Shown here piece after piece: positions 1,299 to 36,016 of a DNA stretch of 36,491 nt (positions within the stretch are counted from its first letter, which is position 1; every line of letters begins with the position of its first letter). The translations under genes and the position numbers were made by a program. The stretch is from a virus, in IMG/VR virus record IMGVR_UViG_3300020186_000054, positions 1-36,491 of that record. One strand, written 5' to 3'. The notes under the pieces are model-generated. The model was given only the letters and a program-made list of their open reading frames with translations. It did no database searches and was not told the origin of the DNA.

Positions 1299-1301
1299 TT
1301 G

Positions 1302-3153: not shown

Positions 3154-3279
3154 TTCGTTGCCAGTAAATACACACGTGCGCACGGGATGGCAACATCTTT
3201 TTTTCGTGTCCGCCGATTTTTTTCATTGACCATGCGTGTGTATGGATTTACATCCTGAACCGTGATCAGAACGCGCACC
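3154..3279. promoter_or_regulatory. Divergent control region between recombination and replication operons
   Basis: 126 bp between genes transcribed left and right, with T-runs (3199-3204, 3217-3223). An 8-bp inverted repeat (atacacac at 3168-3175, gtgtgtat at 3236-3243) brackets the centre and could be a pair of operator half-sites. TTGACC at 3226-3231 resembles a rightward -35, but the -10 is poor. Presence of promoters is inferred from gene layout. Confidence 0.4.
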
Positions 3280-4130: not shown

Positions 4131-4498
4131 CCGAAGACGATCTTCGCAAAATCGGCTATGAAAAACTCCCCGACGGAAGTTGGCAAAAGGCTGGAATTGT
4201 GGTTGCCGGGACACCTGCCGCCCAGCCTCAACCAGATCCTGTACCGACATTGGCGTTTCGTTCAGGGTATCAAAAAGGAAGCGCAGGTCGCGTTGCTCTC
4301 CTCTTTGAAATCCGCAGGCGACGGCTCCTCGATCCTGACAACACCGTCGTCAAATTCCTTACGGACGGCCTACGTCGCGCTGAACTCTTGGATGACGACC
4401 GGGAAAAAGATGTCTATATCGAGACCTGGCAAATCAAAGTCCACCGCGAAGAAGACGAAGGGACGAAAATCATCATGATTTATCCCGTTAAACAATAA
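4127..4498 (+). CDS. RusA-like Holliday-junction resolvase, apparently split between two frames
   Basis: The frame starting at ATG 4127 has a good RusA C-terminal half: RRRRLLDPDNTVVKF, with the conserved D-x-DN catalytic motif, then DGLRRAELLDDDREKDV with the second Asp cluster and a beta strand. The expected RusA N-terminal half (LPPSLNQILYRHWRFVQG, usual PPSxN..L..HW pattern) is not in this frame; it is encoded about 4185-4265 in the frame starting at ATG 4158. A full-length enzyme therefore needs a -1 shift near 4270-4310, where AAAAAGG occurs in the codon context AAA AAG G. Without it the 123-residue product has a nonsense middle. Either a sequencing indel, a decayed gene or recoding. 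If functional it resolves branched replication or recombination intermediates. Confidence 0.6.
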   Translation: MTEDDLRKIGYEKLPDGSWQKAGIVVAGTPAAQPQPDPVPTLAFRSGYQKGSAGRVALLFEIRRRRLLDPDNTVVKFLTDGLRRAELLDDDREKDVYIETWQIKVHREEDEGTKIIMIYPVKQ

Positions 4499-4504
4499 AT
4501 TGAG

Positions 4505-5386
4505 ATGAATCAATCACCAGCGTTCCAGTTTTACCCGTCTGGCTGGCTCGGTAGCCAAAGGGTCGCAATGCTGACCTTGGAGGAAGAGGGGGCGTATATC
4601 CGGTTGCTGGCATTTTGCTGGCAGCACGGCAGTATCCCGTCCGACCCCGAGAGTGTGGCGCGGTTAATTGGAAAGGGCGCATCAATCGCCCTCGCAACCG
4701 CCGTGCTGACAATGTTCCAGCCGTCCAGTGATCGTCCGGACCGATTAAATCACGACCGACTGGACAAGGAGAGGGAAAAACAATCGGAATGGAGGCGGAA
4801 AAGCTCAGCCGGTGGCAAGAAATCATCCGAGCAAAAGGCTGTTCGACAGAGGGAATCAATAAATCCAGTGGATTTCAAGGGTGGTTCAACCACCCTTCAA
4901 CCACCCTTGAACCACCCTTCCAACCATTCCTCAACCACCCTTCAACCACCCTACCAACCAAATGCCAACTCTTTGTCTTTGTCTTTATCTTCATCTTTAA
5001 ATACAAATACACCCCCCACACACCCGGTTTGTCGCTCCGCTCCTGTCCGTGGTTCTGAGAAAATCGGGGTTCCAGTTCATCCTCTCGCAATTCGGATTGC
5101 CGCCATGGTTAAACAGCGACCGACAACCGCATGGAAATCTACCGACATTCGGGCGTTCCAAAACCTGCCCGAGTTCTCAAAACAGGAAATTGCCGATCTC
5201 GAACGATTTTACGCCGATGGGTGGGAGAAAAGGAGTCGAGGCGAGACTTCCTATATTCGAGGCAATCTTTCAACTCTCCTTAACAACTTTGAATCTGAAA
5301 TTAACAAGGCCAAGGTCGAACTCGCCGCAAATGCAGTCCCAAAACCGAACGACGCAATGAAATCAGCAATCGCAGCCAAGCTCTGA
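4505..5386 (+). CDS. Replication initiator, DUF1376/YdaU-like (lambda O-type arrangement)
   Basis: 293 aa. Residues 1-75 are a clear DUF1376 domain (AFQFYPSGWLGSQRVAMLTLEEEGAYIRLL split across the usual WLG.. and EGAY.RLL motifs). Residues 115-175 are a low-complexity linker of Asn, Pro, Thr and Ser encoded by tandem DNA repeats. The C-terminal part (AWKSTDIRAFQNL, YADGWEKRSRG) is a helical module as seen in phage initiators. It directly precedes the helicase gene, the same order as lambda O then P. It probably binds the repeats in its own gene and loads the helicase. Start: ATG 4505, 7 nt after the previous stop; no strong ribosome-binding site. Confidence 0.7.
   Translation: MNQSPAFQFYPSGWLGSQRVAMLTLEEEGAYIRLLAFCWQHGSIPSDPESVARLIGKGASIALATAVLTMFQPSSDRPDRLNHDRLDKEREKQSEWRRKSSAGGKKSSEQKAVRQRESINPVDFKGGSTTLQPPLNHPSNHSSTTLQPPYQPNANSLSLSLSSSLNTNTPPTHPVCRSAPVRGSEKIGVPVHPLAIRIAAMVKQRPTTAWKSTDIRAFQNLPEFSKQEIADLERFYADGWEKRSRGETSYIRGNLSTLLNNFESEINKAKVELAANAVPKPNDAMKSAIAAKL
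4877..4960 (+). repeat. Iteron array inside initiator gene, candidate phage origin
   Basis: 11-bp units of the form ttcaaccaccc lie at 4885-4895, 4896-4906, 4907-4917 (one change), 4930-4940 and 4941-4951, with a degenerate unit at 4918-4930. The first forms a perfect 10-bp-arm inverted repeat with 4877-4886 (centre at 4887). Immediately downstream, 4961-5010 is pyrimidine-rich and AT-rich, suitable for unwinding. Iterons plus an AT-rich tract within the initiator gene is how lambda ori is built. Origin function is inferred. Confidence 0.6.
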
Positions 5387-5391
5387 CCCCA

Positions 5392-6702
5392 ATGACCGCA
5401 TTCGACACTCCTGACCGCTGGCTTCCGTTTGATGGCACCGCCGAAGAGGCATTGATCGGGTGCGCAACCGTGGATCCAGAAAAGATAATCCCTTTGATCG
5501 CCTCCGTGCCGGGTGATGACCTGTTCTATATCCCGGCCAACCGGACGATTTACGGGGCCATGGCGTCCATGCAGGAGGCTGACATGCCCATTGATGCCGT
5601 CACACTGACTTCATTCCTGCATCAGTCCGGGGATCTGGATGCCGTAGGGGGGGCGATAGCCGTCTCTCGCCTCACCCAGCTCCTCCCGACCGCCGCCAAT
5701 GCCAAGTTCTACCTGAAACTGGTCACTGATAAGCAGCAGTTGCGCCGAATCATCACGACGGCAACCGATTTGGTGTCAAAGGCACATGATTCATCCATGC
5801 CCATGGAAGATGTTCAGGAACAGGTCGAGCTGGCCTTGCATTCGCTGATCCGTTCCTCGAACACCATTGCCGAACCTGAAATGACATGGAAACAAGCAAT
5901 CAACGCGGCCCGGGATCATTATGAAGCCGTGTGTCTCGGGACGAAGGAACCGGGTTTGTCAACCGGGCTGGGCTCTTTGGATCGCATCATCGGCGGCATG
6001 GTGCCCGGAGACATGATCTGCATTGCCGGGGAATCCGGTGGAGGGAAAACCGCCCTCGCACTGCAAATTGCCGGTCGCCTCGCTCTCAAAGGTGAGCGAA
6101 TTCTGGTATTCACCCTGGAAATGACGCAGCAAATGGTGATTGATCGGCTGGTCTCAAATATCGGTGGTGTCAACCTGACTAGCCTTCGCATGCCGGAATG
6201 GCCAGCCCACATGATCGACAGGGCAGGAGCCGCCCTTCATCGCATCGCAGCGCTCGATATTATCGTGCGCGATGATTCCGATATGACCCCAACTCAAATG
6301 CGGTCCATCGCCCGGGAAGCCAATGCAAAAAAACACGTCGGCCTGATCGTTCTGGACTATCTCCAACTGGTTTCCCCTGAGAAAGCAAATAACGAACAGA
6401 ACCGGGAACGAGAGGTCGCCAAAACCTCAATGGCCGCAAAAGCCATGTCCAAGGAAATCGGTTGCCCGGTCATCGTCCTATCCCAACTGAACGAGAACGG
6501 TAAGGTTCGAGATTCCCGACAAATCTTCTTCGACGCGAAACTCGCCCTCAAAATCCTCCCAACAGAGGATTGCGAGGTCAATACCCGAAAACTTCTAATC
6601 GCTAAAAACACAAACGGCCCGTCCGGCGATGTCATCACCCTCGCATGGAACGGTCAACACGTCCGGTTCGATGATCTCTCAACCAAGGAACAACCAAAAT
6701 GA
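5392..6702 (+). CDS. dnaB: Replicative DNA helicase, DnaB family
   Basis: 436 aa, typical DnaB length. The N-terminal domain (to about residue 150) has the DnaB-type opening (EEALIGCATVDPEKI). The RecA-like motor carries Walker A GESGGGKT at residues 213-220, FTLEMTQQ (H1a-like) at 240-247, Walker B LIVLDYLQLV at 318-327, and VIVLSQLNE further on, all as in hexameric 5'-3' replicative helicases. It follows the initiator gene after 5 nt. It would unwind the phage fork after loading by the initiator. Its stop overlaps the next ATG. Confidence 0.93.
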   Translation: MTAFDTPDRWLPFDGTAEEALIGCATVDPEKIIPLIASVPGDDLFYIPANRTIYGAMASMQEADMPIDAVTLTSFLHQSGDLDAVGGAIAVSRLTQLLPTAANAKFYLKLVTDKQQLRRIITTATDLVSKAHDSSMPMEDVQEQVELALHSLIRSSNTIAEPEMTWKQAINAARDHYEAVCLGTKEPGLSTGLGSLDRIIGGMVPGDMICIAGESGGGKTALALQIAGRLALKGERILVFTLEMTQQMVIDRLVSNIGGVNLTSLRMPEWPAHMIDRAGAALHRIAALDIIVRDDSDMTPTQMRSIAREANAKKHVGLIVLDYLQLVSPEKANNEQNREREVAKTSMAAKAMSKEIGCPVIVLSQLNENGKVRDSRQIFFDAKLALKILPTEDCEVNTRKLLIAKNTNGPSGDVITLAWNGQHVRFDDLSTKEQPK

Positions 6703-6896
6703 AAAAAAACCTGGCCAATTATACCTTCACCAAATGCGCCAAAACCGCCGCATCCCTCCCGTCGATCACATATGCCGAACTGGAACGCGCATGGAAGAGC
6801 GCCAAATATCGAGCGTCCAATCAGAAAACCGCACCCGTGATCATTTGGATGGATGTCGTCAACGCAATGGAAAGTTCATCACCGCCGAAGCCATGA
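6699..6896 (+). CDS. Hypothetical protein, 65 aa
   Basis: Starts at ATG 6699 overlapping the helicase stop (ATGA) and ends by ATGA overlap with the following gene, which is the best evidence that it is translated. Basic N-terminus (MKKNLANYTFTKCAK), a Tyr/Ala/Lys helix and a Pro-Lys-Pro end. No family recognised. Confidence 0.5.
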   Translation: MKKNLANYTFTKCAKTAASLPSITYAELERAWKSAKYRASNQKTAPVIIWMDVVNAMESSSPPKP

Positions 6897-7177
6897 GCAC
6901 GACAGACCCTAAACGAGCGTTATCTGCATCCGATTTGTTGGGCATATTGCTCATATTACGGGAAATCCAAGAGATCGCCGAATGGATGCCCACCGGAGGA
7001 ATCGGCAGCGAGGGTGCCACAATGGAGGAATTGAGCCAAGCATCCGAAGAAGGGCACCCATACGATAATGACATGGATTACGACGTGGTACAACGCATAT
7101 GGCGACTTGCGGAAAGCGCAATCAATCTGATGCCTAACGATGAAACTCACGACTGCGAACCGGAGACATCCAAATGA
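6893..7177 (+). CDS. Hypothetical acidic protein, 94 aa
   Basis: ATG 6893 overlaps the previous stop; the frame is open further upstream but there lies within the helicase gene. A hydrophobic helix (ASDLLGILLILREIQEIAEW) is followed by a Gly-rich turn and a strongly acidic stretch (EEGHPYDNDMDYDVV). Overlaps the next gene by ATGA. Not recognised; acidic, DNA-mimic-like composition is noted without claiming function. Confidence 0.55.
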   Translation: MSTTDPKRALSASDLLGILLILREIQEIAEWMPTGGIGSEGATMEELSQASEEGHPYDNDMDYDVVQRIWRLAESAINLMPNDETHDCEPETSK

Positions 7178-7413
7178 CTGGCGAGGATCCGAAGCCGATG
7201 GTCGCTTGCCCCTTCTGCGGGAAGACGATTGCCAGCGAGAACCAGTGGGGGCGACTCTCTATAGATGTCGAAGACGCTGAGGCGGTCGCTGAACACTTCT
7301 TCAAGGCGATCTCCAATGATGCGCGGAAGCCACTCGAAGCTGAAATCATCCGACTAAAGGCGCTCTTATTCGATTTGCAGAACGCGGGCAGCGACGGCGC
7401 AAATGTCGAATAA
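7174..7413 (+). CDS. Small zinc-finger-type protein, 79 aa
   Basis: ATG 7174 overlaps the preceding stop. One CPFCGK knuckle near residue 13 looks like half of a Lar-type zinc ribbon; no second Cys pair is present, so zinc binding may be lost or dimeric. The rest is helical. Its C-terminus contains QNAGSDG, encoded by GCAGAAC at 7377-7383, the same core as the cassette boundary at 8995. It overlaps the next gene by 11 nt. Confidence 0.55.
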   Translation: MTGEDPKPMVACPFCGKTIASENQWGRLSIDVEDAEAVAEHFFKAISNDARKPLEAEIIRLKALLFDLQNAGSDGANVE

Positions 7414-9694: not shown

Positions 9695-10735
9695 TCTGGA
9701 TGGGCTCGTGACCAAACGAGCGAAGCGAGCACTAATTGCCTTCGTCATCTTGACCTATTCTCGGGCATCGGGGGCTTCGCGCTGGCTGCACGCATGGTCG
9801 GAGGAATCGAAACGGTGGCTTTCTGCGAGCGTGAGAAATACGCGCAACGAGTGCTGAAAAAACATTGGCCGGATGTGCCAATCTGCGACGACATCCACAA
9901 AATGAAAGGAAACGAATATGGAACAATTAACCTTATTACAGGGGGATTCCCTTGCCAACCTTACAGCGTCGCCGGGAAGCGAAGAGGCAACGAAGATGAC
10001 CGTGCGCTCTGGCCGCAAATGCTGCGAGTCATACAAGAGGCAGGGCCCGCTTGGATCATTGGTGAGAATGTGCCTGGCATCATCACGATGGCACTCGATG
10101 GCGTGCTTGCTGACTTGGAAAATGAAGGATACGACTGCGAAACGCTCGCTATACCAGCTTGCGGCGTCGGCGCCAGTCACCGCAGAGAACGAATTTGGAT
10201 TGTGGGGCACTCCGCGCTGCGCGGATGGGATGGCGCATCCGCTCAGAGATCCGCAGAACATCGCGGGCAAAGGGAGATCAAGGCTGGAGGATCAAGTTGC
10301 ACTCTGGCCAACTCCCAGAGCTGGCAAGACCTCGGGAGAGAATGCCGAGACATGGCAGAAGCGAGCCGACGCGGGGAGTGTGGCAACGCCGCCGCTCGCG
10401 CTGGCGGTCAAGATGTATCCGACGCCAACGGTGCAGGGCGCGGAGAACGACGCCGGCCCCAGCCAATTCAAGCGGAATACGCCGCCGCTCAACGCCGCTG
10501 TGCATGGAGATCAGAAGCAGACTGGTTCGCTGAATCCGGCGTGGGTCGAGTGGCTCATGGGATACCCAAGCGGGTGGACCGACTTAGAGGACTCGGAAAC
10601 GCCATCGTCCCGCAAGTCGCAGCCGAAATCATCCGCTGTATCGTCGCAATCGAAAACGGAGCGGTAGCTCCAGCCCCTCCGGAATCTAACGCCGCCTTCA
10701 GCGATGGCGAGCCAAAGACTTTAGACAACCACTAA
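9641..10735 (+). CDS. dcm: DNA (cytosine-5) methyltransferase in attC-bounded cassette
   Basis: 364 aa from ATG 9641 (overlaps previous stop, ATGA). The enzyme proper starts at LRHLDLFSGIGGFALA (motif I, about residue 30). GGFPCQPYS holds the catalytic Cys (motif IV), GENVPG is motif VI, GASHRRERIWIV is motif VIII, and RLRGLGNAIVPQVAAEI near the C-terminus is motif X. All key motifs are present, so it should be active, methylating C5 of cytosine on phage or host DNA to evade restriction. The first 18 residues are attC-encoded. A second same-strand frame stays open across 9918-10667. It ends ESNAAFSDGEPK over the first half of site 5. Confidence 0.88.
   Translation: MTISSDDLPEVCCNGLLDSGWARDQTSEASTNCLRHLDLFSGIGGFALAARMVGGIETVAFCEREKYAQRVLKKHWPDVPICDDIHKMKGNEYGTINLITGGFPCQPYSVAGKRRGNEDDRALWPQMLRVIQEAGPAWIIGENVPGIITMALDGVLADLENEGYDCETLAIPACGVGASHRRERIWIVGHSALRGWDGASAQRSAEHRGQREIKAGGSSCTLANSQSWQDLGRECRDMAEASRRGECGNAAARAGGQDVSDANGAGRGERRRPQPIQAEYAAAQRRCAWRSEADWFAESGVGRVAHGIPKRVDRLRGLGNAIVPQVAAEIIRCIVAIENGAVAPAPPESNAAFSDGEPKTLDNH
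9918..10667 (+). CDS. Second reading frame inside dcm, conserved-looking (possible overprinted gene)
   Basis: A 249-codon frame, ATG 9918 to TAG 10667, wholly inside dcm on the same strand. Its translation has patterns I recall from separate phage proteins: TASPGSEEATKMTV near the start, FGLWGTPRCADG, ALWPTPRAG, MYPTPTVQG and NPAWVEWLMGYPSGWTDLED. These may be a widely annotated shadow of dcm, since they arise from codons of motifs VIII and X read in another frame, or a real overprinted protein. No separate ribosome-binding site stands out. Dcm itself has all its motifs and is the safer call. Confidence 0.25.
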   Translation: MEQLTLLQGDSLANLTASPGSEEATKMTVRSGRKCCESYKRQGPLGSLVRMCLASSRWHSMACLLTWKMKDTTAKRSLYQLAASAPVTAENEFGLWGTPRCADGMAHPLRDPQNIAGKGRSRLEDQVALWPTPRAGKTSGENAETWQKRADAGSVATPPLALAVKMYPTPTVQGAENDAGPSQFKRNTPPLNAAVHGDQKQTGSLNPAWVEWLMGYPSGWTDLEDSETPSSRKSQPKSSAVSSQSKTER

Positions 10736-10774
10736 AACCAATGCCGAGCCATTCGCTGCAAGGCGCTGGTAGGC
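10684..10774 (+). repeat. attC-like site 5
   Basis: 91 bp. Cores ATCTAAC (10684-10690, perfect RYYYAAC) and GGTAGGC (10768-10774). Inner boxes CAGCG-ATGGC and GCCATTCGCTG pair fully except one extra A, the same extrahelical-base position as site 2. The flanking spacers also share GCGCCTT/CGCCTT. ATCTAAC complements GTTAGAT at the start of the dcm cassette exactly. Confidence 0.6.
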
Positions 10775-10789
10775 GACGAACCTGAGACT

Positions 10790-11047
10790 ATGAACAAAGC
10801 CGAACTACAACAAATCGTGCGCGGCGCAATGAGCCAAGCACATGGAGACGACCTTGAGCGTGCAAACTACGCCTTCAGGGGATTGACCGCGGAACAACTT
10901 AAACTTCCCCACGGCCAATCCGGCAAGTCCAGGGAAGAAATCTGGAACGGCTACAAAGAGCACCGTGCCAAGCATGAGGAAGCGGCCAGGTATATCGAAC
11001 GTCTGATGAGCGCGCCAGAGTCGCCTACCGCACAAGATCAGCCATGA
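10790..11047 (+). CDS. Hypothetical protein in last cassette, 85 aa
   Basis: ATG 10790, shortly after a short frame that begins inside site 5 and stops at 10785, an arrangement suited to re-initiation. Helical and charged (AELQQIVRGAMSQAHGDDLE, later KSREEIWNGYKEHRAK). Unlike the other cassette ORFs it starts beyond the attC-like site. It ends SPTAQDQP, encoded across GCCTACC (11023-11029), which complements GGTAGGC at its cassette start. No family recognised. Confidence 0.55.
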   Translation: MNKAELQQIVRGAMSQAHGDDLERANYAFRGLTAEQLKLPHGQSGKSREEIWNGYKEHRAKHEEAARYIERLMSAPESPTAQDQP

Positions 11048-11063
11048 CTGATTTTGTCACCGT

Positions 11064-11102
11064 AAAATCAAAAGCCCCCGAAGCGGCGAACCTCGGAGGC
11101 TT
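11064..11102 (-). terminator. Hairpin with T-tract on minus strand
   Basis: Read on the minus strand: AAGCCTCCGA, an 11-nt loop, TCGGGGGCTT (one mismatch), then TTGATTTT. It looks like a rho-independent terminator for leftward transcripts reaching here, e.g. from the small operon 12589-11908. On the plus strand no U-tract follows. Confidence 0.5.
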
Positions 11103-11907
11103 ATGAAAAAGACAGGTCCCAAGAACCGAGGATCCCACCCTGACGGGCTGCCACTCGCAAGGAGCGGCCTCTACATTTCTTGCGCTTACCCGCCAGTAAA
11201 TTCCCTCAAATCAGCCACTCGGTCAAGCGGCTTTTCTGACCCGCTCTTTCCGTAGTACCGGGAATTAATCCCAAATCACCCCCCACCCGGCCCCATCAAA
11301 ATCGGGAAAACATCCCCTCACTCACCATTCAAACGTCACCATCACCCCGTAGAAAATCGGGAAAAATATGGTCCGCTCACAAGGAATCATCCCAGCTTTA
11401 TACCCAAAACAGGGCACTTCGCACTGTCGATGGGGATCGAATCTATATATAAGGGGCGCCCATGGGGCAAGGGTGGGGGTGGGGTCCGGGCTCGATATAG
11501 GCCCCGATCGGCCCATTCCCTGCTTCTCTATCCCGTTGTCGTTCAATTACTTGTGACTTCATTATACATGAACCTTATTGTGCCACCTTATGCCTTTGAC
11601 CCTTCGATACAGCTCCCGCTCACCCCACCCTGGGACGGGGTCGATGCGTGATTTTTACGCCCTTCGAGTAAATACGGAATTAGCGTAACAAGTCGCTACC
11701 TGGTCGCTAGGTCCCCGTCCATTGATCGGCTCACCTGGGTCCGCTACGCCCCGTCATGATCGAGCGGCTGGACGGTTGATCGAGCCTATTGAGTACGGCC
11801 CTTACCTGATATGATCGGACCGGGTTAGAGACTCTCTCGTCTATCGATAGAGAGAGTGTGCTATCGTGAGGGGACCCGCTTCCGCGTCTCCGTCTACGCT
11901 GGACGTG
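11103..11907. other. 805-bp region with no convincing gene
   Basis: No ORF with credible start or composition on either strand. Holds aaaatcgggaaaa twice (about 11299 and 11350), a C/G-rich stretch 11455-11520, TATAAT on the minus strand near 11560, several tgatcg-type words at 11730-11820 and a hairpin at 11831. A minus-strand frame ends at about 11197 in RVADLREFTGG but lacks a start and may be a gene remnant. No tRNA fold was recognised. Confidence 0.5.
11831..11857. repeat. Inverted repeat around CTATCGATAG
   Basis: Arms ACTCTCTC (11831-11838) and GAGAGAGT (11850-11857) flank an 11-nt centre that contains most of the 10-bp palindrome CTATCGATAG (11841-11850). It lies in non-coding DNA downstream of the leftward operon. 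Could be an operator, a recombination site or a simple hairpin. Confidence 0.5.
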
Positions 11908-12099
11908 CTATATCGGCGCTGCGGCTACGGGGGATCTTAAGGGGGATTTGGGGTGACATGTCAAGCTCTTTTTTTGGCTTCCCCTCTTCCATCGGATCAT
12001 TGCGATGCGACGAGCCTCTTTCGCCGACAATTTTCGCCGTGACTTCGCGCCGCCCTTTGCTCCGATTCGGGCCAGGTATTCCGCGGGCGTTTCGCTCAC
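11908..12099 (-). CDS. Small basic protein with GGAKSRRKLS motif
   Basis: 63 aa from GTG 12099, whose GTGA overlaps the upstream stop; GTG 12102 is also possible. N-terminus MSETPAEYLARIGAKGG, then KSRRKLSAKEARRIAMIRWKR, a basic helix-turn-like stretch seen in small bacterial and phage proteins, probably DNA-binding. The tail after residue 45 is unconserved-looking. The first seven residues repeat the start of the upstream gene product. Function unknown. Confidence 0.5.
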   Translation of the reverse strand: MSETPAEYLARIGAKGGAKSRRKLSAKEARRIAMIRWKRGSQKKSLTCHPKSPLRSPVAAAPI

Positions 12100-12407
12100 C
12101 ACTTCTGCCTTCTCAAGGCGTCAATGGTATCGCGTTCGGTATGCCACTCCATCCGGATGGCCTTTATCAGCCTCAGCGCCTGATAGACCGCCTTGGCCGG
12201 GTCCGCATCGGGGTCCCTGCCCCATTGCTGGGCGTGTATCGCGGCGGCCACCTGCGCCACGAGGGCAAGAGGCGGTTCATCCTCCCCGGATTGCTGCTTG
12301 GGTTTCGGTAGGACAGACGGGTTGGCCTGCCGTTTGGGTGACTTGCGGCATTTGAGTTTTTTCATTTTTGGCGTTGCTTTCATGGATTCTGCGGGTGTTT
12401 CGCTCAC
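12096..12407 (-). CDS. Hypothetical basic protein, 103 aa
   Basis: Starts at GTG 12407 (GTGA overlap with upstream stop) or ATG 12383. MSETPAES is followed by a Lys-rich segment (KMKKLKCRKSPKRQ) and then a helical half (ALVAQVAAAIHAQQW, AKAVYQALRLIKAIRMEW). Not recognised. The start region GTGAGCGAAAC.CCCGC.GAAT is shared almost base for base with the next gene. Confidence 0.5.
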   Translation of the reverse strand: MSETPAESMKATPKMKKLKCRKSPKRQANPSVLPKPKQQSGEDEPPLALVAQVAAAIHAQQWGRDPDADPAKAVYQALRLIKAIRMEWHTERDTIDALRRQKW

Positions 12408-12589
12408 CTCCCTATCACCGCTCGGTTCACCGCCTTGCGAAATGCGTCGATGGCTTCCCAGCGGCCGAACCGTGCTGCGATGATTTTCGTTGCCTGACCT
12501 CTGCGCGCCCCACGCATCCGTCGGCTTCCGGAGATAACATATTGTACGAGTCCCGTTGTCCCCATGTCTGCGAGTTTGATCCTGTTCAT
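12404..12589 (-). CDS. Hypothetical small basic protein, 61 aa
   Basis: ATG 12589 preferred over a TTG at 12625 upstream. MNRIKLADMGTTGLVQYVIS followed by an Arg-rich stretch (GSRRMRGARRGQ) and a helical end. Promoter-proximal gene of a three-gene leftward operon linked by GTGA overlaps. The T-rich triple repeat at 12625-12666 lies just upstream and may contain its promoter. Function unknown; a regulator is conceivable. Confidence 0.45.
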   Translation of the reverse strand: MNRIKLADMGTTGLVQYVISGSRRMRGARRGQATKIIAARFGRWEAIDAFRKAVNRAVIGR

Positions 12590-12624
12590 GGCCCGGAGTA
12601 TCGGATGCGTAAGCGGGTTAGGCA

Positions 12625-12666
12625 AGGATTATTTTCGGACTATTTTTCGGACTGTTTTTCGGGCCT
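12625..12666. repeat. T-rich repeat (ttttcggact units), left copy
   Basis: Aggattattttcgg, actatttttcgg, actgtttttcgggcct: three related 12-13-nt units. A two-unit version lies at 16185-16213 in the same orientation. The two copies bracket the block of small plus-strand genes. Confidence 0.65.
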
Positions 12667-12768
12667 GATTGCGGGATAAATGCGCCATTTAATCCGTCGT
12701 TGTGGGAATTATTTCACGTCGTAAAATGTTGATATCCAGCCGATTAAAACTTTGTTAAAAATACTTGA

Positions 12769-12790
12769 TTGACACGAAACCGGTTTCGTG
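12769..12790 (+). promoter_or_regulatory. LacI/GalR-type operator overlapping a -35 box
   Basis: CACGAAACCGGTTTCGTG at 12773-12790 is a perfect 18-bp palindrome with the central GAAACCGGTTTC typical of LacI/GalR-family operators. It overlaps TTGACA (12769-12774), a consensus -35. The expected -10 about 17 bp on (GAGTCT) is poor, so promoter position is uncertain. A bound repressor would control the rightward small-gene block. Confidence 0.6.
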
Positions 12791-12803
12791 AGAGTCTTTG
12801 GGC

Positions 12804-12983
12804 ATGAAAACCACCGCAGTCACCAACGCAGTCACCAACGCAGTCACAATCACCCCCGCCGGAAAGACGGCCGAGCGTAGGTCTCTGCGGAAAGCGCTGC
12901 TCGCAGCAACGACAAGCACCAAGCGTTGCTGGCAGCATCCCGTCTCACAAACACAATTCTGGGCCGCGGCAATCACTGAATGA
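12804..12983 (+). CDS. Doubtful small ORF downstream of operator, 59 aa
   Basis: ATG 12804 follows the operator by 13 nt. Residues 5-16 come from three 12-bp tandem units (12816-12851; AVTNAVTNAVTI), and residues 25-35 (RRSLRKALLAA) from the 30-bp dispersed repeat also found at 7460. The rest is unremarkable. It could be a short leader peptide or just transcribed leader DNA; coding is uncertain. Confidence 0.3.
   Translation: MKTTAVTNAVTNAVTITPAGKTAERRSLRKALLAATTSTKRCWQHPVSQTQFWAAAITE
12876..12905 (+). repeat. 30-bp dispersed repeat, copy 2
   Basis: 29 of 30 bases equal 7460-7489. It is followed by an imperfect inverted repeat (CAGCAACG and CGTTGCTG) at about 12905-12940 that is absent at copy 1. 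Confidence 0.75.
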
Positions 12984-13013
12984 CACCCCCAAACCCCAAA
13001 CCCCAAGCCCAAC

Positions 13014-13304
13014 ATGAACACACTCACCTACCCCTACCCCGTCACTCCGCTGGCATGCGCTCCCCGGAAAGGGAGCCGCGTCGGCATCGTGTGGTACATC
13101 CGACTCGCGTCGGGTGAGTACATGCGCCCGAGCTACGGCGGCGCCAACTTTTGCCCGCGCGTAGGGGCGAAAAAAGAAGCGTGGCTTTATTGCGCCACTC
13201 CGGCGGAGTCCGCCTTGCTCATGTCATCTATTGAGGCGTGGGCATCGCAGGTCGATGGAGAAATCCACGGAGAAGAATACGAATGGTATCCAGGCTGGTT
13301 CTGA
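13014..13304 (+). CDS. Hypothetical protein, 96 aa (small-gene block)
   Basis: ATG 13014 after an A/C-rich leader. Aromatic-rich and mixed (VGIVWYIRLASGEYMRPSYG, later GEEYEWYPGWF), with a beta-strand look, so a small globular protein. No family recognised. First solid gene of a run of ten in the same direction. Confidence 0.6.
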   Translation: MNTLTYPYPVTPLACAPRKGSRVGIVWYIRLASGEYMRPSYGGANFCPRVGAKKEAWLYCATPAESALLMSSIEAWASQVDGEIHGEEYEWYPGWF

Positions 13305-13356
13305 CCCCAAACCCCAACCCAACCCAAACCAACAAACAAACAAAGGAACTACGAAA
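13305..13356 (+). promoter_or_regulatory. A/C-only leader with ribosome-binding site
   Basis: 13305-13344 contains only A and C. It is followed by aaggaactacgaaaATG, where AAGGA can pair with 16S rRNA. The end caaaggaactacgaaa is identical at 15084-15099, upstream of another gene in the block. Confidence 0.6.
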
Positions 13357-13560
13357 ATGATCACATTGAAATTCGACAACGGCGAAGCGGGCAGCGACTA
13401 CGGGTTCTTCTACACGATCCAAAACGGAGAGCAGGAAACGATCGGACCATCAGCCCCGACGCAAGAAGAGTGGGAAAAACTCAACTACTCAGAGGAGGAC
13501 GCGATCAAGGAACTCCTCGCAAGTGGGTTCGAGCGGTCAGAAATCGAAATTCGGGGATAG
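13357..13560 (+). CDS. Hypothetical acidic protein, 67 aa
   Basis: Start at ATG 13357 set by the AAGGA 11 nt upstream; the open frame extends further but within the previous gene. MITLKFDNGEAGSDYGFFYT then Glu-rich (EEWEKLNYSEEDAIKELLASGF). A compact acidic alpha/beta protein; composition resembles phage inhibitors of host proteins, but that is only an analogy. Confidence 0.65.
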   Translation: MITLKFDNGEAGSDYGFFYTIQNGEQETIGPSAPTQEEWEKLNYSEEDAIKELLASGFERSEIEIRG

Positions 13561-13595
13561 AACCCAACCCAACCCAACCCAACCAACCAAACACA
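13561..13595 (+). promoter_or_regulatory. A/C-only leader, (CCCAA)n; G-quadruplex potential on minus strand
   Basis: Four consecutive CCC runs spaced by AA, then accaaccaaacaca and ATG. The complementary strand is (GGGTT)n with four G-triplets, sufficient for an intramolecular quadruplex. Related leaders precede the genes at 13014, 13357, 13877, 14173, 14502, 15100 and 15454. Confidence 0.6.
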
Positions 13596-13847
13596 ATGAA
13601 AATGCAAACCGCTCAGCCCAAAGTCAAAACCGAAAACAACCAGACCTATATCATCTGGGGGCTGCGCCGCTACTGGATCGACGACCTTAATAGCGCGACC
13701 GTCTCCTGTGTCGAATCGGCCTGCGCGGAAGTCGGCGAAACCGACGACCTCGAAATGCTTTTCGAGACAATCGACGAAAAAGTAGATGCCACTCCGGGCG
13801 CAAGGGCCGTCTATATGGACAAGCGCAGGTGGGAGGACGCGGAATAA
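13596..13847 (+). CDS. Hypothetical acidic protein, 83 aa
   Basis: ATG 13596 directly after a pure A/C leader. QTYIIWGLRRYWIDDLNSAT, then acidic helices (SACAEVGETDDLEMLFETID) and a YMDKRRWEDAE end. No family recognised. Confidence 0.6.
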   Translation: MKMQTAQPKVKTENNQTYIIWGLRRYWIDDLNSATVSCVESACAEVGETDDLEMLFETIDEKVDATPGARAVYMDKRRWEDAE

Positions 13848-13876
13848 ACGGCATCCAACCCCAACCCAACCCAACC

Positions 13877-14176
13877 ATGACAACGACAACGACAACGGCA
13901 TTGCAAGACGCAGTATCCTACTCCGCGGCAAAATTGTCGCGCGCACACAAAATCTTCGATCCGTGGCAAGTCGCCGAATCTTCGCACAAAGCGAACGTCC
14001 CGGCAATCGAAGCCCTCGCCGAACTGAGGATCCTCATGCGCGTCGCGTCGCACTTGGGCGAGACGGCAGTGGTGGACAAAATCGAAACGGCGTTGCGCCC
14101 CGGTCGAGTAAAAGCTACCGAAACATACCCAGAAAACAAATGGGTCTCCACCCCCAACCCAACCCAACCAAAATGA
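13877..14176 (+). CDS. Hypothetical helical protein, 99 aa
   Basis: ATG 13877 after an A/C leader; begins MTTTTTTALQDAVSYSAAKL. Mostly helical (IEALAELRILMRVASHLGE). Its last codons read through the next gene's A/C leader (TPNPTQPK) and the stop overlaps that gene's ATG, so the leader is here translated. Confidence 0.55.
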   Translation: MTTTTTTALQDAVSYSAAKLSRAHKIFDPWQVAESSHKANVPAIEALAELRILMRVASHLGETAVVDKIETALRPGRVKATETYPENKWVSTPNPTQPK

Positions 14177-14472
14177 AAAAACTGCCTAAAACTCGAATCA
14201 TACAGGTGCAGGGCGCTGAAGTGTATTTCACGCGCCACACCGAAGCGGATGGATCATACTTTTGGGAAGAGTATCGCAAAGACAAGTCCGCCCTCCTCCC
14301 ATACCGGGACGCAAAATTCCGGTCCATGGGTTACGGGCGACGCGGCCCGGCGCCAATGATCGGCGAGGCGTCGAGGGGAATCCCGGAGGATTTCGCAACC
14401 AGCCTCCTGTCTCCCTTCGCCCGGCTGGCATATGCACCGGGCCACAAACCCGCCACGCCGATTCGCTTCTGA
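14173..14472 (+). CDS. Hypothetical basic protein, 99 aa
   Basis: ATG 14173 by ATGA overlap. MKKLPKTRIIQVQGAEVYFT suggests a beta-rich N-terminal half; the second half is Arg/Gly/Pro-rich (MGYGRRGPAPMIGEASRG). Not recognised. Confidence 0.55.
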   Translation: MKKLPKTRIIQVQGAEVYFTRHTEADGSYFWEEYRKDKSALLPYRDAKFRSMGYGRRGPAPMIGEASRGIPEDFATSLLSPFARLAYAPGHKPATPIRF

Positions 14473-14501
14473 CCCCAACCCCAACCAAACAAAGGAACAC
14501 A

Positions 14502-14927
14502 ATGAAAATGAAAACCTATAAAACGCTGGAATTCCGCTTTTCGGAAAGCCGGGGTCGAGGCACGTGGGGCTACAATATCTGCTCGCTGTACGTAGACGGC
14601 CGCAAGGTGTCATCATGCAAGGGAGGCGGCTACGACATGCAGGGCGAGAGCCTGGGCGACTGGGTTGCGCGTGAGTATGCGGACCGGTTGTTGCGGCTGA
14701 AGGATGGCGGCTTCTACGGCCTAACATTCCACGGCAATTCCGCCAGCTCGAAATTTCCGACGCGACTGCATCGGCGCCCGCTGATACACGGAGCCTGCGG
14801 ACTGGAAAGCGTGCGGAGGATCATGCAGGCCATCAAACTTGAAATGGAATACATCACAAAATCATCGAACGCTACCATCTATCGTCTCCACGACCGGCGG
14901 CGGACCAGGGCGAAAGGAACAAAATGA
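14502..14927 (+). CDS. Hypothetical protein, 141 aa
   Basis: ATG 14502 with AAAGGA upstream in an A/C leader. Largest of the block. Beta-rich start (YKTLEFRFSESRGRGTWGYN), then GGGYDMQGESLGDWVAREYAD; it contains LTFHGN and ends basic (DRRRTRAKGTK). The YDMQG..LG..VA..Y order is reminiscent of small phage proteins of unknown function. Overlaps the next mini-gene by ATGA. Confidence 0.6.
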   Translation: MKMKTYKTLEFRFSESRGRGTWGYNICSLYVDGRKVSSCKGGGYDMQGESLGDWVAREYADRLLRLKDGGFYGLTFHGNSASSKFPTRLHRRPLIHGACGLESVRRIMQAIKLEMEYITKSSNATIYRLHDRRRTRAKGTK

Positions 14928-15061
14928 CATGGCAAAAAATGTTCATGGCCTGCGGAATCGTCATTATGATCGGCGGTATAAACGTCATAATGATCAACAT
15001 ACCCGTTGGCCTGGGAGTGATAGGAGTAGGCTATATTGTCGGCTGGTTCGGCAATGATTGA
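14924..15061 (+). CDS. Small membrane protein, 45 aa
   Basis: ATG 14924 overlaps the previous stop. Almost entirely hydrophobic: MFMACGIVIMIGGINVIMIN then VGLGVIGVGYIVGWF, enough for two short transmembrane helices with a turn at INIPVG. Role unknown (envelope interference or superinfection exclusion are possibilities). Confidence 0.6.
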   Translation: MTWQKMFMACGIVIMIGGINVIMINIPVGLGVIGVGYIVGWFGND

Positions 15062-15099
15062 CAACAACAACAAACCAAACAAACAAAGGAACTACGAAA

Positions 15100-15426
15100 A
15101 TGAAATCCATAGACTACCGCAACCTGATCGCCGCGCTCGCCGAAATCCACGAGCCATCCATTGATGAGGAAATTCGCCCACGCGATCTTGCCGGAGAACC
15201 GGCTGAACTTACGCTCCGATTCGGCATCGAATATGGGGACGACGAGGGAGAAGGAGAACTCAGGGACATCTCTAGAGCCCTCGCTCAATTCGGGGTCGAT
15301 GAGGCGGATTGGACCGGCTGCGGTGGCGGCTGTGCAATGGACGCAACTGCCACGGTCATCATCGACGATGCAACCTACGAGCCCTGTGGGTTTGGGCTGG
15401 AAAAACTCAAGTTGGCCGCGGATTGA
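15100..15426 (+). CDS. Hypothetical acidic protein, 108 aa
   Basis: ATG 15100 with the same aaggaactacgaaa leader as 13357. Very acidic middle (YGDDEGEGELRDISRAL), a CGGGC element, and DATYEPCGFGLEKLKLAAD at the end. Probably a small folded alpha/beta protein; no family recognised. Confidence 0.6.
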   Translation: MKSIDYRNLIAALAEIHEPSIDEEIRPRDLAGEPAELTLRFGIEYGDDEGEGELRDISRALAQFGVDEADWTGCGGGCAMDATATVIIDDATYEPCGFGLEKLKLAAD

Positions 15427-15453
15427 CAACAACAAACCAAACAAGCAAACAAA

Positions 15454-15759
15454 ATGAAAGAACTCAATAAAGCTAGTCTCGCATACGCGCTATATGCCGC
15501 TTTGATCGACGAGGACGACGACGGAGGGCTGACACCGTGCAATCCGGCGATATCAGCGGATGGAAATGGATCGTGCTACTACGGGAGCAGCCTCCACAAC
15601 TCGAGTGATGACCTGATCATCATGCAGCTACGGGAGGGCCTGGGCGGATACTCCGGGGTAGGGGAGCAGGATGCGCATGCCGTGTCGGCGGAATGGGCCG
15701 CAGAAATCTGGGCTGAGTGCAACCGGGAGTGGATGGATTGGAAAAGAGGAGCAAAATGA
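15454..15759 (+). CDS. Hypothetical acidic protein, 101 aa
   Basis: ATG 15454 after an A/C leader. Helical start (ASLAYALYAALIDEDDDGGL), three Cys, and an acidic Trp-rich end (EWAAEIWAECNREWMDWK). Overlaps the next gene by ATGA. Not recognised. Confidence 0.6.
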   Translation: MKELNKASLAYALYAALIDEDDDGGLTPCNPAISADGNGSCYYGSSLHNSSDDLIIMQLREGLGGYSGVGEQDAHAVSAEWAAEIWAECNREWMDWKRGAK

Positions 15760-15977
15760 AAATTTACATCACGTCAGAAGCAACCGCGTTTGCCTACCTC
15801 CGATCTCTCGAGCCATCGACCGAGATCGAACTCCCGGGAGCCTATGAGGCGAAGCCGCACGGCGCCGTTGCCGATGCCGTCTCCGTCATCACTGGCGAAC
15901 CCCCCAACGCATGGGCTACCTCCATGAATCGCTGGGAGTGGACTGCCGGGGAAATAATCGCGGCACTGGACCGCTGA
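15756..15977 (+). CDS. Hypothetical protein, 73 aa, last of small-gene block
   Basis: ATG 15756 preceded by GAGGAG (15747-15752), the strongest ribosome-binding site of the block, within the previous gene. MKIYITSEATAFAYLRSLEP..; a small alpha/beta protein. Followed 16 nt later by a strong terminator, which closes the operon. Confidence 0.6.
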   Translation: MKIYITSEATAFAYLRSLEPSTEIELPGAYEAKPHGAVADAVSVITGEPPNAWATSMNRWEWTAGEIIAALDR

Positions 15978-15993
15978 ACCCAACCCGCAACCC

Positions 15994-16029
15994 CCAAAGC
16001 CCCGAGCGCAACCCGCTTGGGGCTTTTGG
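15994..16029 (+). terminator. Strong rho-independent terminator after small-gene block
   Basis: CCAAAGCCCCGAGCG, 5-nt loop, CGCTTGGGGCTTTTGG: a near-perfect 15-bp stem whose 3' side ends in a T-run. The A-run on the other arm would also allow some termination of leftward transcripts. Confidence 0.8.
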
Positions 16030-16184
16030 CGTGTGGTCATCCGGCTTCCGTGCGCCTCGCTACGGGGTTTTCCGGACGCGAGTGGGACGTGGATGCCCGG
16101 GGCCAGTGCCGGGTTCTGCTAGGACCCGCCAATCAGGCCCTCGTTCAGGCGGTCCGCCCGCCCGCAAATGCCAGCGCTTACGCT

Positions 16185-16213
16185 AGGATTATTTTCGACT
16201 ATTTTTCGGGCCT
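16185..16213. repeat. T-rich repeat, right copy
   Basis: Aggattattttcg, actatttttcgggcct: same as 12625-12666 minus one internal unit and one G. Lies immediately before the palindrome and the 22-bp array. Confidence 0.65.
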
Positions 16214-16233
16214 TGGAATCGCCGATTCCGCCC

Positions 16234-16383
16234 GCTCCCGGAAAAGCGTTTAGCCACTCCCGGAAAAGCGTTTAGCCGCTCCCAGAAAAGCCGGGAATCG
16301 CTGGGGAATTTGGCGATTCCGTCCACTCCCGGAAAAGCGTTCAGCCACTTCCAGAAAAGCGTTTAGCCGCTCCCGGAAAAGCG
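16234..16383. repeat. Phased 22-bp direct-repeat array
   Basis: Units of the form RCTYCCRGAAAAGCGTTTAGCC at 16234-16255, 16256-16277, 16278-16292 (truncated), 16325-16346, 16347-16368 and 16369-16383 (truncated). Head-to-tail phasing is exactly 22 bp, about two helical turns, so a bound protein would lie on one face of the DNA. The interruption 16293-16324 holds ggaatcg/cgattcc words. Candidate origin, partition or packaging/regulatory locus. Confidence 0.7.
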
Positions 16384-17069
16384 AATATCCGGATTCTTTG
16401 AACCATTACAAGGCGGGCCGATTTAACTTTTTTCGATTCCCGATCACTTTTTGCTTGCGCCAAGGCGGGCGGTTGTGGATGTTTCGCCCATCCAACCGGA
16501 TTAAACTGTCGGAAAAGAGCGAGTGGATATAATTTTTGACCACCCACTTGGGGAGTACCGCGAGGCTCCTAACCTTCTCTTTTAAGGCGTTTACAAGTGG
16601 GCGGTCTCTTCTTCTAGGGGATCTTCTGCGGGACAACCGGGCGGTTCGACAACCCGGTTCGCGGCGTCACAGCGACCGGACAGCAAAGAGTGCATCGGAA
16701 CGCGGCAAAACTCGACGGGCAACGATTACGAGGGTATCGACCCGGCAAAGTCCACAAGGACGAGCGTCATGCCGCCCGCAAATGCAAATGGTCGCCATGA
16801 GACTGTGATTCCCCAAACCGGGGATAGGACGACCAGGGGAATGACAACATGACCGAGGTTCCCCTAGAGCAAGGCGGGCGGGCAACTGGATGAAAGTCCG
16901 GTCCCAAACTGCCAAAATTGCCGCCAAACCGCTCTCACTCCGATTTCAGCGATCCTCTCACCCGAGAACCGCAAGATCCCTCCTGCCATTAAGAAGTCGG
17001 GGAAAGAATCATGGGAATCGAGAGTTCAAAAGAGAGAAAACCACAAAAAAGTCCCGCGTTTGGGCTGAT

Positions 17070-20000
17070 TTAATCCCGTCTCAACCGAGGCTCATATTCC
17101 CGCTGAATTTCCTTGAGACGGCGTTTATATCGTTCCGACGCCTCGCGCTTGGTGTCATTTGCCCTGGTTGACCCGGTAATATTCCGAAGTTCCCGTGTGG
17201 CCTGAGTTTGCTGTTCCCGGCGTTCAAACAAAAGATTTCGTTCGACTGTGCGCGGATTGATTTGTGCGATTCGGACACCGACGAGAGAAAGAGCGGCCCT
17301 GCCTGGGGTATATTGCCTGCCCGTGCGAGTGTCTTCGATGCCGCGACCGCCCTGATTATTGCGCGAGAACGATTTAATTAGTTCCTGGGAGCCATATCCA
17401 CCTGCCAACGGGGGCGCCATGTTGCGAATGACGGTCTGGGCGGCGCCTTTCGCGTTTGGTTCGATGGGTTGACCGGAGAACAATTGTCGCCCCGCCATGA
17501 GCTCAGCGACTACGTTCAAGAGAGGCGTACTTCTCATACCGCCGACTGGATTATCTCCAATAATGGCGTCTAGATCCCGGTTCCAAAGATTGCGCAGTGT
17601 CTTGGTGTAGTCGCCGACGATGTTGAACGGGTCCGCGTTGATGAAATCGAATTTACCGGTCTTTTTGTTGCGCGAGAATGGAATGCGAAGTTGGGAACGC
17701 TCCATGGGACTGGACTGTCGGATCATCCGATCCCAATCCTTTTTGTCATCATCGGAAAGCATGGATGATTCCACGATTTTCTTAATGGCAAGAGGCGTGG
17801 TGACGAGCCCGGTAAGAATGGCCGCGCTGGTCATGCGCTCTTTGACGCTGAGAAGCGGGTTGCCAACATCTTCGGCCAGGTTCTTCATCACGCGAAACAT
17901 CTGATAATTATAAGTGATAAATGGATTGACGAACGGGAGTTTGCTGGCGATTTGGATTCCCTTTGGTGATGTGCCGTAGTTATGGGTGTAACGATCAGTA
18001 AATCGGAGTGCCTGAGACTCGTTCATGCCGCGAAGGCGGGAATTACGATAAGTGACGTATCGGACGAATGAATCGGGTTGGCGATAGATTTTTTTTGCGA
18101 AGTCATCCGCCGCCTTGAAAGTTGCCAGCGCCTTTTTTACAGGTCGAACGCGACCGGAAATCTGATCGGCGACACTTTCGATAAATTCATGATCAACCTG
18201 GGTTGCGCCAAAGACGCCCAATCGATCCGCTTCATCGAAATACCCGGTTTTACTGCGCAAATCCTTGAGTGCAGCATGCCATTCGACCGGGTTGAAATTT
18301 CGTGCGGCGAGAAGAAACAAAGGGATGGTCGCGTAATTGCGGGAGACTGTTGCCGGGTTCCTGAGCGTGACATTCTGCTTCACCTGACTATTGATAAAGC
18401 CGATGCCGGAATCCCGAATAACTCGTTCAAACGCGGAATTGATGGGAACGACCACACCGATTCCACGGGCGACTTCTTGATGAACCCACTTATCAGCCAA
18501 AGGTCCAAAGGACAGGTTGTCATCCAACTTAACGAACCGTTGCAAGACGGCCTTTTCCGCGTCGGTGGCGGCGTCAAGGTAGGCCGGAAAATTAATGGCA
18601 CTCAATGCTGCCGGGACATTGTCCAAATGCAACTCATCGAACATCTTTAATGCCTTGGAATTGGCCGCACTGGTGATAATTTTTGCGCCCGTGCGAGCTG
18701 CAATTTCGACCGGGTTTAGACGCTCCCCATAAAGGCGGCGGCGCGCATCGGTCATTACCTTTGCGTCGGCAATTTCCTTTTGCTTGGTCGTGGCGATTTC
18801 CAATGTGTTCTCGGCATTACGAAGGGCGGTCCTGGTCTCTTTGGTGTTCGCGTTTTTATTTGCTTTTTTTGCCTGATCCAAATCGGAGTTCATTCCATCG
18901 ATTTCCGTGGCAATCTGTCTCAACTTCATCCCCTTTTCGTCAGGGGTGAGCATCCGATGCTCATAAATAGATGATTTGATGGTCGTCTTACCACCTGAAT
19001 CCGAACCGAACCGCTCTTCATTCCGAAGCTCGGAAAGATGCTGGCGGAGATCCATGGCAGCGGCTTCACGACTGCCGCCAAACTCCCCGACAAGCTCGCT
19101 CACAGTATCCTCGAACGCCTGCGGATCGCGCTTCCATTCCCTGCCATTGACAAAGATGTCATACTGTCGCGCCCGGTAAATTCCCTTGGTATTCTGGATT
19201 GCCTTGCGTCGAACGGGGTCGGACTCGCCTTGCAATAGAGCATCTTGTAACTGACCGATTGCGTAATCAGATTTGCGCTCCGCATCCTTGTAAGCCTGGG
19301 GAATATCGGGATGCGCGAAAAACTCATCATCACTGATTATTCCGTTGACGCGCTGACGGCCGATTTCCTGCTGTCGATCCGTTAATTTAGATGCCCATCC
19401 TGACGCTCCTTCGTAGGCGCGTTGGATCAGTTTATTGTAATAACCAAGATCGCCCTGTCGTCGGGTCAAAACTTCCTGAACGGCGGGATGAAACGCACTA
19501 AAATTCTCCGTGATCATGCGCGTGCCGCGAGCGACGAACCCAGCATCAGGCGCGTGTGTTGATCCATGAGCGGCCTGAGAAATCTTGCCGGTTGGCATTT
19601 TGGTCAACGGCCCTTCAAAGAACGCCTCGTTCGGGTCCATCTTGCCCGTGGCAACCGCATGTTCATGCTCGGCCTTGAACCTGCCAACGCCGTCCCCGGA
19701 ATCATCTGCGCGCTTGTAATCTTCCTTGGCGACCAATCCCCGCACGCCGTTCCAGATATTCTCGATGTGCGCTTTGATGGACGGTCCAAACTCGCGAATC
19801 ATATTTGATGACCATTGCGTGAATTGAACGCCCTTCTGATAGATCGTGCGCCCGAAATCCACGGCGCCCCTGAATACGTCGGCATCAATGAATGCGGCCT
19901 CGCCCTTGGCTTCGATCTTATCTTTGAGAGGTTTGAGTCGAACCGGGTCTGTGATGGGGGGTTCGGGAGCAACTGGTTGACCATTCGCATCAACCTTCGG

Positions 20001-21002
20001 TGCGCTTGCCTCGACAATCGGATGATTTTGATCCGGGGAAATGCCGGGGGCGACGATCTCAGGATCGGGTTTAGGTAACGGCGTGACGGCACTCTCGGAA
20101 ATTGGGGGCGTCTCAACTGCCGGAATCGGGGCGGTTGGCGTCTCGACTGACGGGACTGTGGGGGGCGGTTCCACGATGTTCTCCGTAGCGTTTCGCGGAT
20201 AGAATACGCGTTGACCATCTCGTTGAAGCGGAGATGGTCGGTCCATTCCTGGCTCTACGTTGATGTATGGCTCGTGCAAGTCTTGTCGCGGATAGAACAC
20301 GCGCCCATCTTGTTGAATCGGGGGTGATTGATCCATCCCCGGGTCTACGGCCCTCGACATGCGTTCGCGGGGATACCTCGCCCATGCAGAGAAAATCGTG
20401 TCGGTGGCAAGTTGAGTCATGCCCTCCCGGGTCATCACATCGTGCCCGTCAAGCGCCTGTGAGCCCGCTGACAGGGCGGCTCCCCCCAGAGCGCGCCCCG
20501 CCAACGGAAGCCCTTGTAGCGCTCCAAACGCCGCGAAAGTTGGTACGGACCATGGATTACCGGTTTGCGCCTGCTGGAATGCTCCAGCGGCCACGTTCCC
20601 GGCTAGGTCAGCTACGCGAACGCCAGCTCCCAAACCGGTCGCCATCTTGGCTGCGCCCACATACGGTATGGCAAGCGCGGCGACCTGCGGGGCAACGTCG
20701 CCAACTACGAAGTCAACGACTTTCCCGGGAACGGATTGAGCGCGTTCGAGATCCGGGAACACGTTGGTTCCGGCCCAGTCAATCGGTTCATAGCCGTCGC
20801 TGGACCCCGTTTGGCCCATGTAATCCAGCCGATCAAGTGCATCGACGTAGCCTTGAAACACTCGACCCGGGATCTGCGCAGTTCGCTGAAATGCTCGGGG
20901 AATAAACCCCGTTTCCTCGGGCGGTTGAGGTGGTTGCGACGCCAACGAATACTCACTGAGAAGTGAGTCGAAGATTGATTGTGCTTCCTCGTTGAGAGCC
21001 AT
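17070..21002 (-). CDS. Very large internal virion / ejection-type protein (1310 aa)
   Basis: Last gene of the late operon. Near residues 95-190 there are Ala/Gly/Val-rich hydrophobic stretches (VAALAIPYVGAAKMATGLG), possible membrane-active segments. Residues about 218-275 carry a tandem repeat (PGMD.SP..Q.DG..VFYPR, two copies), then a Pro/Thr/Val-rich linker to about 350. The remainder is helical and charged, with a basic C-terminus (RYKRRLKEIQREYEPRLRRD). Size, position after tail genes and composition fit podovirus ejection/internal proteins injected with DNA. No catalytic motif recognised; a 'large polyvalent' type protein is an alternative. Confidence 0.6.
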   Translation of the reverse strand: MALNEEAQSIFDSLLSEYSLASQPPQPPEETGFIPRAFQRTAQIPGRVFQGYVDALDRLDYMGQTGSSDGYEPIDWAGTNVFPDLERAQSVPGKVVDFVVGDVAPQVAALAIPYVGAAKMATGLGAGVRVADLAGNVAAGAFQQAQTGNPWSVPTFAAFGALQGLPLAGRALGGAALSAGSQALDGHDVMTREGMTQLATDTIFSAWARYPRERMSRAVDPGMDQSPPIQQDGRVFYPRQDLHEPYINVEPGMDRPSPLQRDGQRVFYPRNATENIVEPPPTVPSVETPTAPIPAVETPPISESAVTPLPKPDPEIVAPGISPDQNHPIVEASAPKVDANGQPVAPEPPITDPVRLKPLKDKIEAKGEAAFIDADVFRGAVDFGRTIYQKGVQFTQWSSNMIREFGPSIKAHIENIWNGVRGLVAKEDYKRADDSGDGVGRFKAEHEHAVATGKMDPNEAFFEGPLTKMPTGKISQAAHGSTHAPDAGFVARGTRMITENFSAFHPAVQEVLTRRQGDLGYYNKLIQRAYEGASGWASKLTDRQQEIGRQRVNGIISDDEFFAHPDIPQAYKDAERKSDYAIGQLQDALLQGESDPVRRKAIQNTKGIYRARQYDIFVNGREWKRDPQAFEDTVSELVGEFGGSREAAAMDLRQHLSELRNEERFGSDSGGKTTIKSSIYEHRMLTPDEKGMKLRQIATEIDGMNSDLDQAKKANKNANTKETRTALRNAENTLEIATTKQKEIADAKVMTDARRRLYGERLNPVEIAARTGAKIITSAANSKALKMFDELHLDNVPAALSAINFPAYLDAATDAEKAVLQRFVKLDDNLSFGPLADKWVHQEVARGIGVVVPINSAFERVIRDSGIGFINSQVKQNVTLRNPATVSRNYATIPLFLLAARNFNPVEWHAALKDLRSKTGYFDEADRLGVFGATQVDHEFIESVADQISGRVRPVKKALATFKAADDFAKKIYRQPDSFVRYVTYRNSRLRGMNESQALRFTDRYTHNYGTSPKGIQIASKLPFVNPFITYNYQMFRVMKNLAEDVGNPLLSVKERMTSAAILTGLVTTPLAIKKIVESSMLSDDDKKDWDRMIRQSSPMERSQLRIPFSRNKKTGKFDFINADPFNIVGDYTKTLRNLWNRDLDAIIGDNPVGGMRSTPLLNVVAELMAGRQLFSGQPIEPNAKGAAQTVIRNMAPPLAGGYGSQELIKSFSRNNQGGRGIEDTRTGRQYTPGRAALSLVGVRIAQINPRTVERNLLFERREQQTQATRELRNITGSTRANDTKREASERYKRRLKEIQREYEPRLRRD

Positions 21003-21009
21003 GATTTCG

Positions 21010-31994: not shown

Positions 31995-31996
31995 GG

Positions 31997-32652: not shown

Positions 32653-32678
32653 AGGATTTCACTCCTTGAGAGCGGCAA

Positions 32679-33101: not shown

Positions 33102-33126
33102 GGTGATAGGTTCTCCGGTTAACGGT

Positions 33127-36008: not shown

Positions 36009-36016
36009 ATTATTTC

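Follow-up and report, generated by a model that had tools for sequence, protein, structure and literature searches.

The window, meaning the whole stretch of DNA that was analysed, is a 36,491-base virus record (G000) classed as linear and carrying no completeness estimate. Rightward genes between ~3.2 and 11 kb encode a primosomal-type protein, a DnaB-like helicase and DNA methyltransferases, while the structural and lysis genes run leftward from ~36 to 17 kb. Behind the rightward set come ~1.7 kb without a convincing gene, then a short palindromic site and a block of small genes (12804-15977). Pfam searches of ten proteins from this block (14924-15061 left out) gave no confident match and one weak hit below its cut-off. 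Seven intergenic gaps of the block between 12983 and 15454 are C/A-rich linkers built of CCAACC or CAACAA-like units, and some linkers end in AAAGGAAC ahead of ATG. A nucleotide search with 12000-22000 returned no match in the phage collection, and no close cultured phage was found through the RecT-like, DnaB, capsid-like, terminase-like and portal-like proteins.

The site is a perfect 18-bp palindrome, CACGAAACCGGTTTCGTG, with all nine pairs formed and CG at the dyad center. It shares two bases with a TTGACA hexamer, and 13 nt separate its end from the first ATG of the small-gene block, which places it at -31 to -14 relative to that codon (Table 1). No other perfect 18-bp loop-free palindrome exists in the window, and CACGAAACCGGTTTCGTG has no second match there at up to three mismatches (mean of 0.05 in 100 shuffles). 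Of 400 windows simulated under a first-order Markov model, 63 contained a perfect palindrome of any sequence that was 18 bp or longer, and 2 contained one with the LacI-like core AANCGNTT; taken alone, therefore, CACGAAACCGGTTTCGTG is only moderately unusual. The idea of a restriction site was dropped, as ACCGGT occurs nine times in the window, an unremarkable count below the 12.9 expected. An earlier note had described this spot as a LacI/GalR-type operator over a phage -35 box, and the overlap of palindrome and TTGACA is borne out. A candidate -35 hexamer of a sigma-70 promoter is present as TTGACA in the window and in a related contig, L003, and as TGGACA at a second copy of the palindrome. 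However, the hexamer by itself is not evidence, because the window contains 23 copies of TTGACA, 8 on the + strand and 15 on the - strand. At 15-19 nt spacing the best TATAAT-like hexamer matched 3 of 6 positions in both the window and L003, and a promoter scan of 10500-16000 listed nothing at the palindrome. With neither a -10 box nor a scan match at the site, a working promoter over the palindrome is not supported.

Table 1. Features at and around the palindrome, in window coordinates
Feature	Position	Strand	Remarks
Non-coding upstream region, 3' end A+T-rich	12674..12768	+	94/95 positions same in L003
Candidate -35 hexamer TTGACA	12769..12774	+	
23-nt unit GACACGAAACCGGTTTCGTGAGA	12771..12793	+	one mismatch to L007:16146-16168; 1 or 3 mismatches in three further contigs
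Candidate operator, perfect 18-bp palindrome CACGAAACCGGTTTCGTG	12773..12790		
First ORF of small-gene block, 59 aa	12804..12983	+	no confident family match; differs in L003
Remaining small-gene block, ten ORFs picked by eye	13014..15977	+	mostly C/A-rich linkers between; nine ORFs scanned, no confident Pfam match

A second copy of the palindrome, GACACGAAACCGGTTTTGTGAGA, occupies a different intergenic gap in four sister contigs. These derive from nearly the same phage, with ~99% identity where they overlap the window: L007 matches 182-7228 at 99.3%, L034 (the other end of the L007 contig) matches 31352-36275 at 99.4%, and L041 (3300020203_000126) matches the right end at 99.6% over 851 bp, with the second copy ~5.9 kb beyond. 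The copy is identical in L007, 3300020203_000126 and 3300020186_000261; in 3300020192_000100 it has two further changes. In L007 it reads CACGAAACCGGTTTTGTG (16148-16165) and lies 15 nt ahead of an ATG; the two sites share their orientation and end 13 or 15 nt before a start codon. None of the contigs examined carries both copies. Upstream of the second copy is the stop of a large gene of at least 757 codons, portal-like by its position and without a family match; its neighbor is terminase-like by position and a GGKTT stretch, likewise without a family match. Downstream of the copy, the ATG belongs to a gene for a basic protein of 58 aa, and the genes behind it encode a family 9 glycosyltransferase, a methyltransferase, a glycosyltransferase of family 2 and a radical-SAM protein. 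In L034 (4363-8539) the glycosyltransferases, methyltransferase and radical-SAM protein form a single run behind the portal-like gene. The window lacks ~13 kb that L007 holds between DNA matching the two window ends, including the terminase-like and portal-like genes, and the window ends themselves (1-186 and 36276-36491) fall in variable small genes.

It is the existence of this second copy that lifts the palindrome above chance. When the sequences were shuffled, 2 of 600 trials produced a 23-mer common, with no more than one mismatch, to the window and the part of L034 that is not orthologous to it; a previous run of the same test gave 1 of 40. In the real data, 120 of the 121 shared 23-mers found lie in paralogous genes. 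CG-centered 18-mers with at least 8 of 9 pairs occur in the window, L007, L034, L039 and L040 solely at these sites, with exactly one in the window and one in L007/L034, namely the two copies; such dyads are absent from L003, L035, L038, L051, L052, L058 and L059. Their number in the window does not exceed chance (1 versus 1.93 expected), and that in L034 is close to expectation (1 versus 0.67). It is not the counts of the dyads but their identity that matters.

Six sites were sampled, comprising the first copy in the window and L003 and the second copy in four contigs, among them L038. CG stands at the center of all six. Symmetry is perfect or near-perfect in four (nine pairs of nine in the window, eight in each of three second-copy contigs) and is not strictly kept, since the L003 first copy and the L038 second copy retain only six of nine pairs. 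Between the window and L003 there is a single change in the 109 positions from 12674 to 12782, at 12767. Of the next 17 positions, 11 differ, three of them in the right arm, and the first genes downstream of the site differ too. A junction between conserved upstream and exchanged downstream DNA therefore falls inside the palindrome, and a mosaic boundary at this point is another reading. A pattern search with the upstream DNA matched the L003 contig alone. The alignment of L038 with L039 shows 10 differences in 13,295 columns, two of them inside the dyad, where simple arithmetic predicts ~0.01. Because five of the ten cluster within 120 nt, exchange of a short tract explains the L038 changes as well as selection does, and an assembly error might also be their source.

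LacI-family proteins are the main sugar-sensing repressors of bacteria. Like the operators of that family (LacI, PurR, RbsR, CcpA, FruR and others), the window site is an even palindrome, within the 16-22 bp range of such operators, that lies upstream of a start codon and has a central CG and a AANCGNTT core; we take this core to be a signature of LacI-type operators. Of 1303 LacI-TF motifs, 1251 are palindromes of even length and 1173 carry CG at the center, and >75% of sites fall in the zone from -140 to -30 (PMC4052901). The palindrome also lies upstream of its start codon but nearer than that zone, closer than most operators of the family, and it differs from them further in its phage location, in the loss of symmetry at two of six sites and in the cognate regulator, which was not found in the phage records searched. 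The LacI domain PF00356 was detected in none of three phage records (the window and the L003 and L007 records), while the same profile was found in 14 of 14 control genomes, over its cut-off in nine. Pfam scans of 40 submitted stretches (a subset of ORFs) revealed no helix-turn-helix family; a dksA/traR zinc-finger hit among the scanned phage proteins was weak and below its cut-off. The exact 18-mer is in no record of viral_contigs, a set from which close relatives may be missing. In genome_contigs, a GTDB genome set that may not include the host, it occurs once, in a Spirochaetaceae MAG (L002), on the minus strand inside a coding-like open stretch of 454 codons; the occurrence was taken as chance. 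With this sole genomic match and none in viral_contigs, a bacterial regulon with the exact site was not seen. The looser pattern GGACACGAAACCGNNNNNGTG was found in nine stretches of viral_contigs, three of them contigs of this phage, and TTSATKGACACGAAASCG in 15 stretches, five from contigs of this phage group; the remaining six and ten, respectively, have no nucleotide similarity to the window, L034 or L007. On the PF00356 result, the statement in the earlier note that the window encodes no LacI-type repressor holds. Its interpretation as a LacI/GalR-type operator is partly supported: the even CG-centered dyad directly before the small-gene block speaks for it, as do the near-identical second copy in sister contigs and the absence of a LacI gene from the phage records searched, and the degraded symmetry in L003 and L038 speaks against it. 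A host regulator with the exact site gained no support, and carbon as the signal that such a regulator senses is not supported by any result.

We favor, tentatively and at somewhat less than even chances, a candidate promoter/operator for a dimeric repressor that is shared by two transcription units, through which an outside regulator may switch both gene sets. Both the even dyad with its central CG and AANCGNTT core and the absence of a LacI gene from the phage records suggest a LacI-family protein of the host as the repressor, an identity that is plausible but not demonstrated; promoter activity, repression, membership of the LacI family and host origin of the regulator are all features that we infer from the DNA. 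A dimeric helix-turn-helix repressor would bind the 18-bp dyad, and since the dyad begins inside the -35 hexamer and ends just before the first start codon, RNA polymerase would be blocked at the small-gene block. The second copy would act in the same way ahead of the small basic protein and the glycosyltransferase/methyltransferase run, and the host LacI-family protein would serve as the signal read by the phage. We consider it unlikely that the fullest form of this proposal is correct, in which a single host LacI-family operator sits at two phage promoters, one for a small block of host-interaction type and one for a glycan-modifying run in the structural arm, both come under a host regulator that responds to a sugar or metabolite, and L003 and L038 are operator-constitutive escape variants.

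Host regulators acting on phage promoters are already known, CtrA being an example (PMC9437464). The CtrA sites in phages of Alphaproteobacteria are likewise host-regulator sites in phage promoters, with a timing by host state proposed under the name 'lytic deferment'; in that case experiments demonstrated both binding and regulation, and the sites are dense in one region, while here there are two sites, known from sequence alone (PMC9437464). Cyanophage genes under Pho boxes and the PhoB protein of the host are similarly reported to be tied to a host nutrient regulator, although in that system the regulator is of another class and the host is known (PMC10976474). In the titles and abstract openings searched, a partial coverage of the literature, we recognized no description of LacI-type host control of phage promoters. 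If correct, our favored reading would add the LacI family to the host regulators that control phage genes, and wild phages would supply intact and broken versions of one operator as ready test pairs.

Ranking next is the rather doubtful alternative that what is conserved is a promoter element acting in one direction, TTSATKGACACGAAASCG (an extended -35 region with A+T-rich DNA upstream), which host RNA polymerase or an activator would recognize, with the palindrome a by-product in some strains. The left part is constant at all six sites while the right arm varies, and the abrupt loss of identity between the window and L003 after 12782 agrees with such an element. However, four of six sites are perfectly or near-perfectly symmetric, the -10 box was not found, and the left part has no third copy in any of the window, L034, L003 and L007, where the best further match is 15/18. 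As a plain promoter element, the site would still mark both start points, that of the small-gene block and that of the glycan-gene run.

It is unlikely, though still deserving of consideration, that the palindrome serves as operator for a repressor encoded by the phage itself, or for a host regulator from another family that the profile searches missed. Room for such a regulator is left by the many small phage proteins to which no family could be assigned and by the fragmentary, incomplete state of the known records. Against this, the Pfam-scanned subset of ORFs yielded no helix-turn-helix family and only the sub-cut-off dksA/traR hit, and the AANCGNTT core is presumably a LacI-type signature. 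The central CG likewise argues for the LacI type (PMC4052901). Very improbable, in our view, is a palindrome that arose by chance, was duplicated by chance or accident and has no regulatory role: the frequency of perfect palindromes in simulated windows and the loss of symmetry at two sites would suit it, but an unrelated intergenic gap holds the second copy at the same distance from an ATG, and shuffled sequences rarely share the 23-mer. Least probable of all is an RNA element, either a leader hairpin or a mini-ORF controlling translation of the next gene, for although the site keeps a constant 13-15 nt before ATG, the outer five pairs are present in all variants if G-U is allowed and the second copy can be read by eye as an eight-codon frame, ATGGACACGAAACCGGTTTTGTGA, we rejected the hairpin because all four sequences fold near the shuffle mean and no better than shuffles (z of 0.22, 0.99, -0.21 and 0.26), with that hairpin forming in the window sequence only, and the leader peptide because changes between the window and L003, counted by eye, are spread roughly evenly over the three codon positions.

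Several further observations concern the DNA on either side of the site. The long stretch from 11284 to 12782, without convincing genes and with ~86% or higher identity to L003 over most of its length, is a candidate control or origin region. Within it, at 11828-11859, the center of a short hairpin stem (GAGACTCTCT...AGAGAGTGT) is oppositely oriented in L003 (1736-1765), as if inverted by template switching. The sequence GTAGGTCTCTGCGGAAAGCG is present twice, at 7461 and 12877, in two different small genes. Beyond the small-gene block, 16197-16391 consists of repeated CCACTCCCGGAAAAGCGTTTAGC-type units, which in L003 (2262-2349) lie on the other side of the block.
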